This document shows positions 51,913 through 59,125 of a stretch of 61,494 nt of DNA, in pieces; within the stretch, counting starts at the first letter, position 1, and each line of letters begins with the position of its first letter. The position numbers and the translations under genes were made by a program. The stretch covers positions 1 through 61,494 of the forward strand of contig NZ_JARGOQ010000020.1 of the NCBI RefSeq assembly GCF_029233945.1, written 5' to 3'. The stretch comes from Sneathiella sp. (lineage in GTDB: Bacteria > Pseudomonadota > Alphaproteobacteria > Sneathiellales > Sneathiellaceae). The notes under the pieces are model-generated. The model was not told where the DNA came from, ran no database searches, and saw only the letters and a list, made by a program, of their open reading frames with translations.

Positions 51913-53223
51913 TTAGCTGTCGGCGGAATTGGCGGGTTTCGCGGGTTTCGCAGGAGAGGTCATTTTCACCGGCTGTGGCGTTGGTTTGACGGCGGTCGCG
52001 GTCGAGCGTGTCGTTACCGTGGAAATGATTTTATCAATCACATAGAAAATAAGCTCGACGCTGTAGCCCGCAAGGAAGGCGATGGCGAGCGGGCTGAAAT
52101 TCGCGAGGCTGGACGAGCCGAGCTTGATCGTCGCAATTGCCGAGGAATGCGAGGTGAGGGAGTAGAATTTACTCGGCGCTTCGGTAAAAAAGAAGCTGGC
52201 CATGATCCCGGCAAGCGGGCCTTGCGTGATCCGAAGGCTGTAATCGATATGGGAGTTCATCGAAAAAGTCAGATTTTCGATATCCTTTGGGAGCTGTCGA
52301 AGCACATAGAAGGATGCCCCCAGCAACCCATAAAGGATCGGCAGGAAATAAACCGAGATGGCATGTAGCACATATTGGGCGGAAACGTAATGGACATGGA
52401 TTTTTGATTCCGGTGAGAGGTCGTTGTAATCGGGCTTTTCCCAGGTCTGTTCACTGAAAAAGATGATCCGTCCCCAGAAACGGTTCCAGTTTTTAAGCTC
52501 GATAATCTCTGCGCTGCGCCAGGCGATATATTCGCCGATCTGATGATTGAGGGCCTGGATATCGACCTTCCGTCCCGGGGCGGTGCGTGCCTCTGGCGCG
52601 GCTGTCGTCTCGCCTTCTGTTTCCCCTTCCTCATTCGTGGCTGTGCCGTTGCTCTTCGGAAAACTGTTGAGGCTACCATTGGGTGAAGAGGTGTTGTTTT
52701 CGCTAAAAAGCTGCTCTTCCAGCATTATGATCTGATCAGACTGGTCCTTGATATCGATGACAAGAGTGTTGCCGATCGACCAGAACACCTGCAACGCGAT
52801 CAGGCTCAGCAAGGTAGTCAGCGATAGCATTTTGTATCGAAAGGCAGATTTTCGGGAAAAGGGTACATATATGCGCCCTTGCAGATATCCCCAGATCCCG
52901 GAACGCAGGCGCCGCATGTCATGGGTTGCGCGGACGCTGTCGATGGTGATCGGGCTTAACGTACGCGAGAGAGAATCATAGGCATGCCAGAAACTGTTGA
53001 TATTCTCCGGGGTGAGCCGGGATTTATCAAGGGCATCGCTGGTCTCAAGAATGGTCTGGGTTACTTCCGCATCAAGCTCGATGCCGCGTTCCGCCGCCGT
53101 CATCATCAGAAGCTGGGCATCGACGAGGGATGTCTGGAGGATGGTCGTTGCAAGGGTCCGCTCTGACGGTTTTTCGCTCTGCTGCGATCCGTCCGTCGTT
53201 GATTGCTTTGAAAAAAGACCCAT
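51913..53223 (-). CDS. hypothetical multi-TM membrane protein
   Basis: No family named with confidence. 436 residues: a polar, helical N-terminal region (to about 130), a membrane helix near 133-153, a Ser/Asn/Glu-rich periplasmic or linker section with low complexity (180-225), then paired helices around 295-320 and a conserved-looking LANFSPLAIAFLAGYSVELIFYVIDKI segment near the end, split here by context. The tail is Pro/Ala/Lys-rich. A strong AGGAGG lies before the ATG. The LSPLAxAFLAGYSVELxF-type ending recurs in uncharacterised bacterial membrane proteins. Confidence 0.75.
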   Translation of the reverse strand: MGLFSKQSTTDGSQQSEKPSERTLATTILQTSLVDAQLLMMTAAERGIELDAEVTQTILETSDALDKSRLTPENINSFWHAYDSLSRTLSPITIDSVRATHDMRRLRSGIWGYLQGRIYVPFSRKSAFRYKMLSLTTLLSLIALQVFWSIGNTLVIDIKDQSDQIIMLEEQLFSENNTSSPNGSLNSFPKSNGTATNEEGETEGETTAAPEARTAPGRKVDIQALNHQIGEYIAWRSAEIIELKNWNRFWGRIIFFSEQTWEKPDYNDLSPESKIHVHYVSAQYVLHAISVYFLPILYGLLGASFYVLRQLPKDIENLTFSMNSHIDYSLRITQGPLAGIMASFFFTEAPSKFYSLTSHSSAIATIKLGSSSLANFSPLAIAFLAGYSVELIFYVIDKIISTVTTRSTATAVKPTPQPVKMTSPAKPAKPANSADS

Positions 53224-53397: not shown

Positions 53398-53748
53398 GTG
53401 ATAATGTATGGGATTAAAAACTGCGATACCTGCAGGAAGGCGCTCAAATGGCTACAGGCGGAGGGGATCGACTGCCGGTTTCATGATTTACGCGCCGATG
53501 GCTTGCCCGGGGCGGAGCTTGAAAAATGGCTCTCTGCCTTTGATCGCGATACCCTGGTTAACAAGCGCGGGACAAGCTATCGCCAACTGGACGATGCGGC
53601 GAAGGCGGCGCTGGCGGGGGACGATCCGACGGCTGAGATCATCGCCCAGCCGACATTGTTGAAACGGCCTATTTTCTCGCATAACGGCCGCTATCTGGTT
53701 GGCTTCAAGGAACCGGAGAAAGAAACGCTGAAAAGCTGGGTGGATTAA
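53398..53748 (+). CDS. ArsC/Spx-family protein (YffB-like)
   Basis: 116-residue thioredoxin-fold protein. The opening MYGIKNCDTCRKALKWL has the ArsC-like Cys-x2-Cys motif, and the end KRPIFSHNGRYLVGFKEP is typical of the YffB subgroup, which is not a proven arsenate reductase. The start is GTG at 53398 because GAGGG lies 10 bp upstream; ATG at 53404 would also fit. Its stop codon overlaps the PAS-protein stop in a TTAA, so the two are convergent. Confidence 0.85.
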   Translation: MIMYGIKNCDTCRKALKWLQAEGIDCRFHDLRADGLPGAELEKWLSAFDRDTLVNKRGTSYRQLDDAAKAALAGDDPTAEIIAQPTLLKRPIFSHNGRYLVGFKEPEKETLKSWVD

Positions 53749-54578
53749 TCCAGCTTCTGCACATAGCAAAGGACGTGATCGATATCGATCTGGTTCTCGC
53801 TGAGTGGCAGGGCGATCACTCGAAGCGGAATTTCATCGAAGGTAGAGGGGAATTGCTCGGTCCCGTGGGTCGGCTTGCCTGAATTCGCGACATCCCGCGC
53901 AAGGCCGAGGACCCAGTCGACCACCATCGGCGTAAATTCGATATCCGAGGCATATTTCTGGTGCGGGTTTTCTGCCTGCGTGGCCTGGCGGACTTCGCTG
54001 GCGAACCCGTTTTCCAGCTGTAGACGACCGGCGACCCGATCACAATGGACCAGCGTACAATTGGGCCAGTATTTTCCGATCTTGGCCGTATCCAGATTCT
54101 GCCAGCTGGGGTAGCGGTTGCCGTCACGTATTTCCATCCAGTAGGAAAGAATATCCGGTGTCGCCGGCTTTTTCTGCCATCCGGAGGTAGCGGCAGGCCG
54201 GGCCCAATGCGCCCGGCGTGGCGGCACGGCGGAAACCGGCTCGGGAGTGGAAAGAATCTCTTCTTTTGCAGGAGCTGGAGTTGCCGACTTCGGCTTTGCC
54301 TGCTTTTTTGCGGGTTTCGCAGGGGCTTTCGCCTTCTTAGGGGCCGGGGAGAGCGTCTCTTCTGCTTCCTGCGCGAAGGCAGGTTTGGGCGCGCCTGCTT
54401 CCGGCTTGCTGGCCTCCAGCTCCTCCGAGAGTGCCTGCAAGCGGTCGGTAATGTCGCCGGATTTCACCTTGCGGGGGGACGCGACCGTATCCTTTGGCCG
54501 TCGTACCTTGATCTGTGACAGCGACGCCGCATTCAGGCCCGCGTCCAGCTCGTTATTTTCATCAATATTTTCACGCAT
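53745..54578 (-). CDS. PAS_5-like domain protein with Lys/Pro-rich linker
   Basis: 277 residues. The first 135 are disordered and Ala/Pro/Lys-rich (a block resembling a flexible basic linker near 80-110). The C-terminal part (about 143-275) resembles the PAS_5 family common in Rhodospirillales: LSYWMEIRDGNRYPSWQNLD, GKYWPNCTLV, then VRVIALPLSE-type sequence RVIALPLSENQIDIDHV. It is the last gene of the parA operon, 16 bp after the ribbon-helix-helix gene. A ligand- or partner-sensing role is inferred only. Confidence 0.72.
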   Translation of the reverse strand: MRENIDENNELDAGLNAASLSQIKVRRPKDTVASPRKVKSGDITDRLQALSEELEASKPEAGAPKPAFAQEAEETLSPAPKKAKAPAKPAKKQAKPKSATPAPAKEEILSTPEPVSAVPPRRAHWARPAATSGWQKKPATPDILSYWMEIRDGNRYPSWQNLDTAKIGKYWPNCTLVHCDRVAGRLQLENGFASEVRQATQAENPHQKYASDIEFTPMVVDWVLGLARDVANSGKPTHGTEQFPSTFDEIPLRVIALPLSENQIDIDHVLCYVQKLD

Positions 54579-54594
54579 AACTGGCTACTTCCGC

Positions 54595-55236
54595 TCAGAG
54601 GGACGACTTGTCCAGAACACAATTGCACGATTGCGGCAGAATATCCGATCCGTGGTTGGCGACATACTCTTCCAGAGCGGTTTCAAAGATTGACTGAGCG
54701 GACATCTGCGTATGCGCCGCGATGAGTTTGAGCTGCAGATGATCCTTGGGGGACATGCGGACGGAAATCCGGATGCGGCCCAGGCCATCTTTCTTCAGCT
54801 TTGAGACTTCCGCGGCAATTTCCTGCGCTTTTTCTTCGCCAAGCGGGGAGTTTTCCGCATCGTTGAGCGTTCCATTTACGGCAGGTTTGGGCGTGGAGGC
54901 ACGGGAAAAATCCGTCGATTGAAAGGGAGAGGAGCCATTATGGGCAGTCGCGGCCTTTTCCGGTGTTGCGGAATCGGATTCGCGGGCCATGAAGGCCGGA
55001 GCATTGTCTTTGCCGTTAGAGACAGAAACTCCCTCGGAGCTATTCGATGCATTCTGCTCAGGCGCCGCATCATGCGTCTCGGCATACTCGCGTACCCTGT
55101 CATAGATGCGCGATACATGGTTATTGCCATTCTTCTTGTCGTCGTCGAGAAGATTTCTCGGCGTCAGACGCGGCGAAGCCGGGGCGGCCTTGCCCTTGGA
55201 GGCAATCAATGAACTGGAGAGAAAAGCTGCTTTCAT
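54595..55236 (-). CDS. ribbon-helix-helix-like protein, ParA partner candidate
   Basis: 213 residues. The first 140 are disordered and polar, with a short basic N-terminus (residues 1-30). The last 65 contain LGRIRISVRMSPKDHLQLKL and QSIFETALEEYVANH, an arrangement like ribbon-helix-helix DNA-binding or CopG-type proteins. Ends with a Cys-containing tail. The gene follows parA by 34 bp. Partners of orphan ParA proteins often carry a disordered basic N-terminus that stimulates the ATPase; this fits, by inference. Confidence 0.7.
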   Translation of the reverse strand: MKAAFLSSSLIASKGKAAPASPRLTPRNLLDDDKKNGNNHVSRIYDRVREYAETHDAAPEQNASNSSEGVSVSNGKDNAPAFMARESDSATPEKAATAHNGSSPFQSTDFSRASTPKPAVNGTLNDAENSPLGEEKAQEIAAEVSKLKKDGLGRIRISVRMSPKDHLQLKLIAAHTQMSAQSIFETALEEYVANHGSDILPQSCNCVLDKSSL

Positions 55237-55270
55237 GACAAATCTTCTTCTTGTAAATGGCCGTCAGAAC

Positions 55271-55966
55271 TTAGTTGTACGCCGCGCCATTGCTAGCCGG
55301 AGAGGCGGAAAGATGATGCGACGTCGGCATTGCATGGTTGGTTTCCATGCGCGACAGACGCTCATCGATATAGGACCAAAGCTTGGCGATCTCATCGCTG
55401 GAGCGTGAGCCGGGGTTCAACTCCATGGTCGTCCGGCCATCTATCATGCTGGAAGCGAAATCGACCCGCTGATGGATGATTGCCGGGGCCAGCGTGCCAT
55501 GTTGAGAGAGCGCGATAGCGGCCTCGCTGGTGATCCGGGCGCGCGGCGTTGCGCCGTTAACAACGAAAATCAGCGGCGTATTCAGCCCTTCAGCCAGTTC
55601 CACCGTTGCGCCCACAGCCCGAAGGTCATGCGGGCTCGGCCGGGTCGGGATAATCAGCAGGTCCGATAGCCCGATGACATTGGCAATCGTTGAGGTAATG
55701 GCAGGCGGCGTATCGACGAACAATAGGTTGATGCCCATCTTTTTCATCCGGCCGATGTCCGCCTCGAGGCGTTCAACGGTTGTCCGGGCGAACAGCGGGG
55801 TTTCCGCCTCGCGTTCGTTCCACCATTCCGACAGGCTGCCCTGGGGGTCTGTGTCTACAAGCGCCACCGGGCCGCCGCCAGCCATTTCGGCCTGAACAGC
55901 AAGATGTCCGGCAAGCGTTGTCTTACCTGAACCACCCTTTTGTGATGCAACTGCAATAACCTTCAT
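55271..55966 (-). CDS. orphan ParA-family ATPase
   Basis: 231 residues. The deviant Walker A KGGSGKTT (Lys10 and Lys15) and LFVDTPPAITST (Walker B) identify the ParA/MinD family. It lacks the N-terminal helix-turn-helix of plasmid type Ia ParA. No parB or parS was recognised, so it is not the main chromosomal ParA. It heads a three-gene operon with the ribbon-helix-helix and PAS_5-like genes, suggesting a positioning system for a protein cargo. ATG is preceded by AGGAGAG. Confidence 0.9.
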   Translation of the reverse strand: MKVIAVASQKGGSGKTTLAGHLAVQAEMAGGGPVALVDTDPQGSLSEWWNEREAETPLFARTTVERLEADIGRMKKMGINLLFVDTPPAITSTIANVIGLSDLLIIPTRPSPHDLRAVGATVELAEGLNTPLIFVVNGATPRARITSEAAIALSQHGTLAPAIIHQRVDFASSMIDGRTTMELNPGSRSSDEIAKLWSYIDERLSRMETNHAMPTSHHLSASPASNGAAYN

Positions 55967-55992: not shown

Positions 55993-56041
55993 AACTGGAG
56001 ATAATGAAACCGGTTTTTACAGTCGGTTTATCGCTCCAGTT
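55993..56041 (-). repeat. nested inverted repeat in the parA leader
   Basis: Outer arms AACTGGAG (55993-56000) and CTCCAGTT (56034-56041) enclose inner arms AAACCG (56007-56012) and CGGTTT (56024-56029). The structure is a two-tier hairpin 27 bp before the parA start. It could be an operator or an RNA element; no T-run follows. Confidence 0.5.
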
Positions 56042-58012: not shown

Positions 58013-59125
58013 CTAGGATATATCGGCGTATCTGATTTTTCCTGACATGAAGTCATCATTTTGAAGCGCCGTTTTGGCGGAGTCCTGGCTCAACAGGTCA
58101 TAAAAATCCATTGAGATTGATTTAGCGGGGGAAAGAATGGAGGCGTCCTGTTCACGAATGGAGGCGGTAAGATCGTAAATTGACTTGAAAATGACCCGGT
58201 CGATATCCAGGCTACGGCTGGCGACGGCAAGGATTTCCGGGTTTTCCGCATAGATAATGTCACGAATCTCGTCGCTTTCCACACCGAGCAGCTTGGCGAA
58301 GGCAAATTCAAACAGGTCGATTTCCCCCTGATGCAGGGACTTGATCATGAAGCGGGTGGAAAGCTCGCCGGAGCGGTGTAGTTTCTCGACAAGGCGAAAT
58401 GAGGGATCGCTTTCCTTGGAAATAGACTGGATCGTCTCTTTGCGATCCTTGATATCCATCTCAAGGGCGCGGATATCCACGTCAAAATTTGTGGCAATAT
58501 ATTCCCGTAAAGACATGGAGACCCAGCGGTACATCTTTTCCGCGATCGGGTTGGGCAGGAAGGGGCGCTCAAGAAGCGGGCGCTGATACTCCGGAATATA
58601 TTCTGATTGCTCCCCCAGATAATTCAGCGTCAGGAGCGGTATCCGGGCGCTGTGATTGTTGAGCAGGGTGACCGTGATATGGGGATCATTTATCTCGCAG
58701 AGCGTAGAACAGACCTCTTCCCCGATATTGTCCCGCGCGGCAATGGCAAGCCGATGCTGGTTGGAGCGATGTTTGACAATTTCCAGAAGGTCATATTCGG
58801 CCAGCAGGCCGCATCCCTGGAGGATCGGGAGCGCAACCTCAATCTGGTCATTGGCCAGAAACACGAGAAGGCTTTTTGGGACATCTTCCCGGAGGGCCAG
58901 GTTTTTTGCAAATTTTGCGCGGATCGATTTTTCCACATCAGTGGTTATTCGGCAGATGATGTCCGCCATGATGTCTTTTTCGGAATCGGAGAACTTCAGG
59001 CGATCCTCAATGAGGAATTCACTGATCCGGTTATACAGGAATTCGCGCTTCTGCCGAGATCTTGTCTCCGCAAGGTCGACAAGTGTCTTTAATGTTTCGA
59101 TATTCTCCTGCGCAGCAGCGGCCAT
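58013..59125 (-). CDS. DUF2336 protein
   Basis: 370-residue soluble, mostly helical protein without signal peptide. Conserved DUF2336-type stretches include SIRAKFAKNLALREDVP, LAIAARDNIGEEVCSTLCE and RWVSMSLREYIATNFDVD. It is a paralogue of the partial gene at the right edge (EKMYRWVSMSL versus HKMFWWVSAAL). Families of DUF2336 sit beside sensory and stress genes, but no biochemical role is settled. A full CtrA box lies about 55 bp upstream of its start. The neighbour upstream is a histidine kinase. Confidence 0.82.
   Translation of the reverse strand: MAAAAQENIETLKTLVDLAETRSRQKREFLYNRISEFLIEDRLKFSDSEKDIMADIICRITTDVEKSIRAKFAKNLALREDVPKSLLVFLANDQIEVALPILQGCGLLAEYDLLEIVKHRSNQHRLAIAARDNIGEEVCSTLCEINDPHITVTLLNNHSARIPLLTLNYLGEQSEYIPEYQRPLLERPFLPNPIAEKMYRWVSMSLREYIATNFDVDIRALEMDIKDRKETIQSISKESDPSFRLVEKLHRSGELSTRFMIKSLHQGEIDLFEFAFAKLLGVESDEIRDIIYAENPEILAVASRSLDIDRVIFKSIYDLTASIREQDASILSPAKSISMDFYDLLSQDSAKTALQNDDFMSGKIRYADIS

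Follow-up and report, generated by a model that had tools for sequence, protein, structure and literature searches.

The window analyzed here is a 61,494-nucleotide stretch (positions 1 to 61,494) of contig NZ_JARGOQ010000020.1 from the marine bacterium Sneathiella sp. (Alphaproteobacteria; assembly GCF_029233945.1). On its minus strand, three open reading frames (ORFs) running from position 55966 to 53745 encode a small ParA-type ATPase, a protein with a predicted ribbon-helix-helix (RHH) end, and a PAS_5-like protein (Table 1). Their coordinates leave gaps of 34 bp between parA and the RHH gene and of 16 bp between the RHH gene and the PAS_5-like gene, in agreement with the operon proposed in an initial annotation of this DNA. 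We read the locus most readily as a partition (par) module of plasmid type that has become chromosomal. It may serve as a positioning system, perhaps linked to CtrA, in which interchangeable adaptors share a tag that would bind ParA.

Table 1. Features of the parA operon in the Sneathiella window
Feature	Position	Strand	Description
parA-like ATPase gene	55271..55966	-	231 residues, type-Ib size; Walker A KGGSGKTT
RHH adaptor gene	54595..55236	-	213 residues; N-terminal motif, low-confidence linker, C-terminal RHH
PAS_5-like third gene	53745..54578	-	277 residues
N-terminal motif of RHH adaptor, MKAAFLSSSLIASKGKAAPASPRLT	55162..55236	-	Found with the motif model; sole strong copy in own genome
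RHH domain, about residues 150-199	54640..54789	-	Predicted by profile, AlphaFold2, and Foldseek
C-terminal Cys-x-Cys after RHH domain	54619..54627	-	In 21/21 Sneathiella RHH partners counted
N-terminal motifs AASLxxIxVRR ... KxGDITDRLxxL of PAS protein	54429..54530	-	Seen in window plus 16 relatives
PAS fold, residues 142-276	53751..54155	-	Predicted by AlphaFold2 and Foldseek
CtrA-type box GTAA-N7-TTAA, GTAAATCTTCCTTAA	56075..56089	-	One mismatch to TTAA-N7-TTAA; begins 123 bases before parA start codon

The ATPase is small, has no N-terminal helix-turn-helix (HTH), and carries intact Walker motifs (KGGSGKTT, DTDPQ, and DTPP). It exceeds the Pfam cut-offs for CbiA, AAA_31, VirC1, NUBPL-type ParA, and MipZ, with the NUBPL-type and MipZ matches confined to the P-loop end (MipZ, 27.9 bits for a cut-off of 20.7; best stretch residues 3-56, positions 2-55 of 262 in the model). 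With the NCBIfam model ParA_partition (NF041546), it scores 158.5 bits, under the curated cut-off of 180. Two PDB entries match at E≤1e-10, "ParA" 5u1g and ParF 4dzz, and the ParF alignment begins at residue 1. Between the window and one relative, 69 of 232 third codon positions differ, compared to 11 of 464 other positions; judging from these substitutions, ParA is under purifying selection.

For the second protein, the RHH-like end described in the initial annotation is backed by a family profile, AlphaFold2, and Foldseek, which agree on this predicted fold although the Pfam RHH cut-offs are reached neither by the protein itself (E 0.15) nor by three relatives. The profile matches three PDB sequences, all of them RHH proteins: the SvtR-type 2kel (E 0.004) and omega 1irq and 2bnw (E 0.4-0.5). 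Modeled by AlphaFold2 with 30 relatives, helices 163-176 and 180-199 are confident and most of the rest is low (mean pLDDT, the model's own confidence measure, 63.9 overall). Foldseek returns mostly proteins that are RHH by name (ORF56, ParG at rank 2, AmrZ, CopG, and Arc), at a best E of 0.6. The strand arginine R160 is invariant in 31 sequences; such a conserved arginine is expected of DNA-binding RHH proteins.

Conservation was counted over 135 loci: 22 from Sneathiella or its order, 62 further loci from named genomes, and 51 drawn from the class. Repeats of contigs already fetched (L053-L070 except L067, and L133-L143) were left out, and no two of the loci share identical ParA DNA. The counts are not independent, because a single genome may contribute two or three loci and those of one clade share ancestry, and the sphingomonad and "other" groups were set by hand from record names and the tree. 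At E≤1e-50, a match to ParA is present in 45 of the 289 genomes of Alphaproteobacteria searched. It has matches in 138 stretches of named genomes, the best 80 of which were kept and come from Sneathiella, sphingomonads, Emcibacter-like bacteria, and others, at 60-99% identity. The RHH protein occurs in 22 of 24 genus genomes searched (the two without it are only 66% and 56% complete) and in just 1 of 36 genomes outside the genus. The order ParA-RHH-PAS is kept in all 21 fetched genus loci, one of which ends at a contig edge; a PAS_5-like third gene is also present in 7 of 113 other loci. The three genes thus occur together in more than one species, and the refuting condition named in the initial annotation, homologues that never co-occur, does not hold. 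Because of the conserved order in the genus and the purifying selection on ParA, the operon appears to be more than a chance arrangement.

The gene after ParA begins with a near-invariant consensus, ASLtsgLLARKGxAxPA. The Sneathiella version is LIASKGKAAPA, so that lysine rather than arginine would be the key residue. A motif model was built from 62 seeds, all picked at the position directly after ParA. Among 27,935 stop-to-stop ORFs of the 135 loci, 117 reach at least 10 bits, and 116 of these lie directly after ParA on the same strand, a placement that is partly circular given the origin of the seeds. By group, at least 10 bits is reached in 16 of 22 Sneathiella or order loci, 59 of 62 further named-genome loci, and 41 of 51 class-draw loci, and at least 7 bits in 21, 61, and 42 of them, respectively. 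An independent test is provided by a model without SPOR-type seeds, which recognizes all nine SPOR-type partners at 15-32 bits, the best of 1,350 shuffles scoring 7.3. A search of the own genome for further tag carriers gave chance-level matches alone (E 0.36 and worse).

Known partners of ParA/MinD ATPases work via a short, positively charged N-terminal peptide (PMC13170346, PMC10241942), and the chromosomal ParB motif consists of aliphatic plus basic residues (PMC12462528). By analogy, the tag fits this charged-peptide pattern. The second protein is very probably the partner of ParA, as the initial annotation proposed in calling it an adaptor, since it is adjacent, has a disordered front, and bears a conserved hydrophobic-plus-basic N-terminal motif resembling those of ATPase-activating partners (PMC13170346, PMC12462528, PMC10241942).

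What follows the tag varies. Of the partners, 126 score at least 4 bits; the C-terminal domain is RHH in 108 of these, SPOR in 9, and neither in 9, as assigned with domain models for which 40 RHH and 8 SPOR members of this very set were used. Pfam SPOR is above its cut-off in both SPOR-type partners tested, and an apparent membrane helix, seen by eye, precedes the domain. As these relatives keep ParA and the motif while SPOR with its apparent membrane helix replaces RHH, the adaptor end is read as exchangeable. Behind the partner, a same-strand SPOR-scoring ORF is also present in 42 of 55 sphingomonad loci, in 8 of 49 others with a non-SPOR partner, and in none of the 22 Sneathiella loci; both such ORFs tested have TPR plus SPOR (Pfam). 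A tad-pilus locus, suspected from this TPR-SPOR gene, was not seen by eye in one sphingomonad locus (L128), no family search for tad genes being made.

Two further observations were made at these loci. In L080, L100, and L132, minus-strand repeat proteins, Sel1-like by eye, adjoin the parA operon, and the one in L132 also matches the SPOR model (E 0.00026). Cys-x-Cys occurs within the C-terminal 45 residues of all 21 Sneathiella, 15 of 28 class-draw, and 4 of 59 other named-genome partners (carriers include L052, L153, L162, L165, L167, and L172), and cysteine makes up 0.17% of the remainder of the RHH partner proteins. The pair is possibly a metal or redox site.

When ParA was queried against 72,556 plasmid records by tblastn, 627 matched at E≤1e-20 and 114 at E≤1e-30, with a best identity of 62%. 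Nine of the 25 plasmid loci listed were examined. A version of the motif is visible by eye in the ORF after ParA in all nine; the motif model passes E 0.01 in six and the RHH model in five. A replication gene is near the ParA-RHH pair in four of the eight annotated plasmid loci. On this sequence evidence, the pair is related to type-Ib plasmid partition cassettes. In type-Ib (ParF/ParG-like) systems, the part of ParB is taken by an RHH protein. The initial annotation had presented ParA as an orphan with no parB visible; this is misleading, because the RHH protein holds that place and plasmid relatives carry the same pair. The canonical ParABS system, with a ParB_N/HTH ParB, was considered and rejected: Pfam finds no ParB_N domain in the partner beside parA, and the best ParB_N match of the genome, on another contig, is a separate ParB.

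A ParA tree was built quickly from 96 rows; its branches are long, and 21 of the 93 inner ones are starred. On it, the plasmid sequences do not form one group but are interspersed with the chromosomal ones, and the fewest changes needed are three for RHH/SPOR and six for the presence of PAS. Two plasmids have inverted repeats just before parA (L196:2377-2440, ACGCAAATAC/GTATTTGCGT; L199:2436-2509, TATATACGTA-like), which are candidate operators or centromeres of the ParA-RHH family.

The promoter region of parA suggests how the module might be controlled. TTAA-N7-TTAA is reported to be the CtrA motif conserved across Alphaproteobacteria (PMC9437464). This box, with at most one mismatch, was sought within 250 bases before ParA. 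The expected number was derived from GC-matched windows taken from these loci themselves, and any locus that offered too little such background was omitted. The box is present in 44 of 48 sphingomonad loci (expected, 0.7), 17 of 17 Sneathiella loci (expected, 7.3; modest evidence, as these are close kin and AT-rich), and 22 of 52 others (expected, 5.9). In all three groups, the count peaks at a spacer of 7. For spacers of 5, 6, 8, and 9, the observed/expected counts are 9/1.8, 20/0.3, 4/1.4, and 7/3.3 in sphingomonads, 3/3.1, 11/5.2, 8/3.0, and 5/2.9 in Sneathiella, and 8/5.4, 12/6.0, 5/5.2, and 6/4.6 in the others. The GTAA-N7-TTAA copy of the window recurs in 19 of 21 genus loci, and the box is not present in eight of the nine plasmid loci. 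By hexamer counts, TTAACC is found in 42 of 48 sphingomonad upstream regions (expected, 2.2); no CtrA-like hexamer comes out on top in the "other" group, where the signal comes from the spaced-pair test alone. Closer to parA, at 55993-56041, two 8-base arms (AACTGGAG/CTCCAGTT) separated by 33 bases form an inverted repeat; the arms look co-changed in some relatives (alignment, by eye), as those of an operator or leader stem might.

The third protein matches PAS_5 (PF07310) at 13.8 bits, under the gathering cut-off of 22, and the MopJ model NF051868 as its sole NCBIfam match, at 17.1 bits against a cut-off of 200. The PAS_5-like label of the initial annotation holds at the level of the predicted fold: AlphaFold2 models a PAS fold over residues 142-276 (block pLDDT 82-95, falling to 66 at 201-210), and Foldseek returns PAS/LOV structures at E 6e-4 and worse. 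The front of about 140 residues is of low confidence and contains two conserved motifs. The first of these, AASLxxIxVRR, was tried as a copy of the partner motif and rejected because of its chance-level score with the partner model.

Taken as a mechanism, ParA would bind ATP and, as in its relatives, its dimer should coat the nucleoid. The N-terminal LIASKG/LLARKG motif, to go by its conservation, its position, and analogy, would attach to the ParA dimer and activate its ATPase. Behind it, a long flexible linker would bear the RHH dimer, which is probably DNA binding, at least for autoregulation. The PAS_5-like protein may have an accessory role, either associating with the adaptor or having its position set by it; this is the weakest step of the scheme. 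The CtrA-type box suggests that expression could be tied to the CtrA program. On balance, we think that this chromosomal relative of a type-Ib plasmid cassette is probably a ParA positioning device with an exchangeable adaptor end.

Since the ParA-RHH pair is homologous to plasmid cassettes, true DNA segregation must stay a rival: the RHH protein would bind a chromosomal centromere and ParA would move DNA, as in ParF-ParG-parH of plasmid TP228 or archaeal SegAB. That ParF is the best PDB match of ParA, that ParG ranks so high for the RHH model, that R160 is invariant, and that the plasmid cassettes share both proteins, with a replication gene near in four of the eight annotated ones, all speak for it. 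However, no parS-like or tandem repeat array was found near the operon (degenerate boxes could be missed), the genome has its separate ParB, and SPOR takes the place of RHH in some partners, so we hold segregation by a second chromosomal par system to be somewhat improbable, though a serious rival. The initial annotation favored protein-cargo positioning, with the PAS_5 protein as a possible sensor or cargo; on this model, RHH would be no more than a dimerizer or docking module. The three-gene order in Sneathiella and the PAS_5 third gene in 7 further loci agree with this, as does the resemblance, far below cut-off, to MopJ, a PAS_5 protein of Caulobacter with a polar location and a tie to CtrA control (PMC4432633). 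Yet a PAS gene is missing from most loci that have this ParA and adaptor, and the conserved strand arginine points to DNA; we regard the cargo model as unlikely. The operon could also be left over from an integrated plasmid, as a decayed or selfish element with no function for the cell. This would explain the homology to plasmid cassettes, but is very improbable in view of the purifying selection on ParA, the conserved promoter box, and the position of nadK, which lies upstream in all but one of the 21 genus loci and is less than 1 kb away in 9 of them.

Several observations weigh against the positioning device with an exchangeable adaptor that we prefer. The motif is missing at 7 bits from 9 of 51 class-draw loci, and a PAS_5-like gene stands third in no more than 7 of 113 non-Sneathiella loci. 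The N-terminal motif of the PAS protein reaches at most 3.2 bits with the partner model, where shuffles have a 99th percentile of 2.7 and a top score of 7.3. Other box spacers are in excess too, most strongly a spacer of 6 in sphingomonads (20 of 49 loci; expected, 0.3). With plasmid ParAs among chromosomal ones on a weak tree, no direction of transfer can be read. Finally, methyl-accepting-chemotaxis-like ORFs lie near parA in 3 of the 135 loci (L132, L047, and L144); the one in L132 (L132:1-1689), with Protoglobin, MCPsignal, and CZB domains, is directly upstream of parA, making a chemoreceptor link possible in some lineages. The initial annotation likened the operon to chemoreceptor ATPases; in the window itself, a PpfA-TlpT-like arrangement finds no counterpart, as there is no chemoreceptor or chemotaxis gene among the annotated neighbors of parA.

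Among known systems, ParF-ParG-parH likewise combines a small ParA with an RHH partner that has a flexible basic N-terminal tail (PMC7308502). The Sneathiella operon differs in being chromosomal and in its longer linker, LLARKG-type motif, third gene, and CtrA-type box, with no centromere array found. The omega/delta system of pSM19035 also has an RHH partner, and omega is among the three PDB matches of the family profile; however, the similarity is weak (E 0.4-0.5) and omega/delta is a plasmid system. VirC1 of Agrobacterium is related insofar as ParA passes the Pfam VirC1 cut-off (34.6 bits for a cut-off of 24, over residues 1-171), with 34.3 of 313 bits for NCBIfam VirC1. VirC2 is an RHH-type partner. 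No vir genes were seen at the locus, where no search was aimed at them. Archaeal SegA-SegB shares the chromosomal ParA with an RHH partner, but is reported to be without similarity to bacterial proteins (PMC9178275). McdA-McdB, PpfA-TlpT, and PomZ-PomX/PomY pair a ParA/MinD ATPase with diverse partners through an N-terminal charged peptide, PomX and PomY being two activators for one ATPase (PMC10241942, PMC13170346), but their partner proteins differ from those here. MopJ shares the PAS_5-type domain (PMC4432633); it is a single domain, whereas the third protein has its additional front. No described system of the present kind appeared in search listings of the open-access PMC literature, which cover neither subscription papers nor preprints.

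The annotated neighbors of the operon are nadK, moaA, tgt, an arsC-like gene, DUF2336, and one family-less protein. The NAD kinase gene nadK and a MoaA-type gene lie upstream of parA in the same direction and tgt further downstream (Pfam), and the arsC-like gene is convergent with the third gene, with a 4-base overlap. The stretch 51913-53223 encodes a 436-residue protein without a Pfam or NCBIfam match, membrane bound by eye, which 18 of 21 genus loci have downstream of the operon. The DUF2336 protein (58013-59125) matches SpbR below the cut-off (138 of 400 bits), and in many relatives a second DUF2336-like stretch is seen beyond a histidine kinase gene.

A wider proposal, which we offer as possible while leaning against it, is a CtrA-controlled, nucleoid-based ParA family. 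In it, one tag, LLARKGxAxPA, would be carried by RHH adaptors (for DNA or dimerization) and by membrane-SPOR adaptors (for septal peptidoglycan), so that ParA could connect the nucleoid with the site of division or with a PAS_5 cell cycle sensor; the family would descend from plasmid partition systems whose adaptors were swapped.

Many ParA ATPases encoded on chromosomes pass for orphans because their partners vary too much to be recognized (PMC10241942). The points of interest here are the exchangeable adaptor and the CtrA-type box. With the near-invariant tag, ParA partners can be found by sequence in different species and even where their adaptor domains are unrelated, and the box makes the cell cycle link testable. 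The series from plasmid RHH to chromosomal RHH with a long linker to a SPOR end would show a DNA partition engine becoming a cell organizer. If this is true, a conserved short handle lets one ParA motor carry different partners, and a machine for sorting DNA can become an organizer of the cell.

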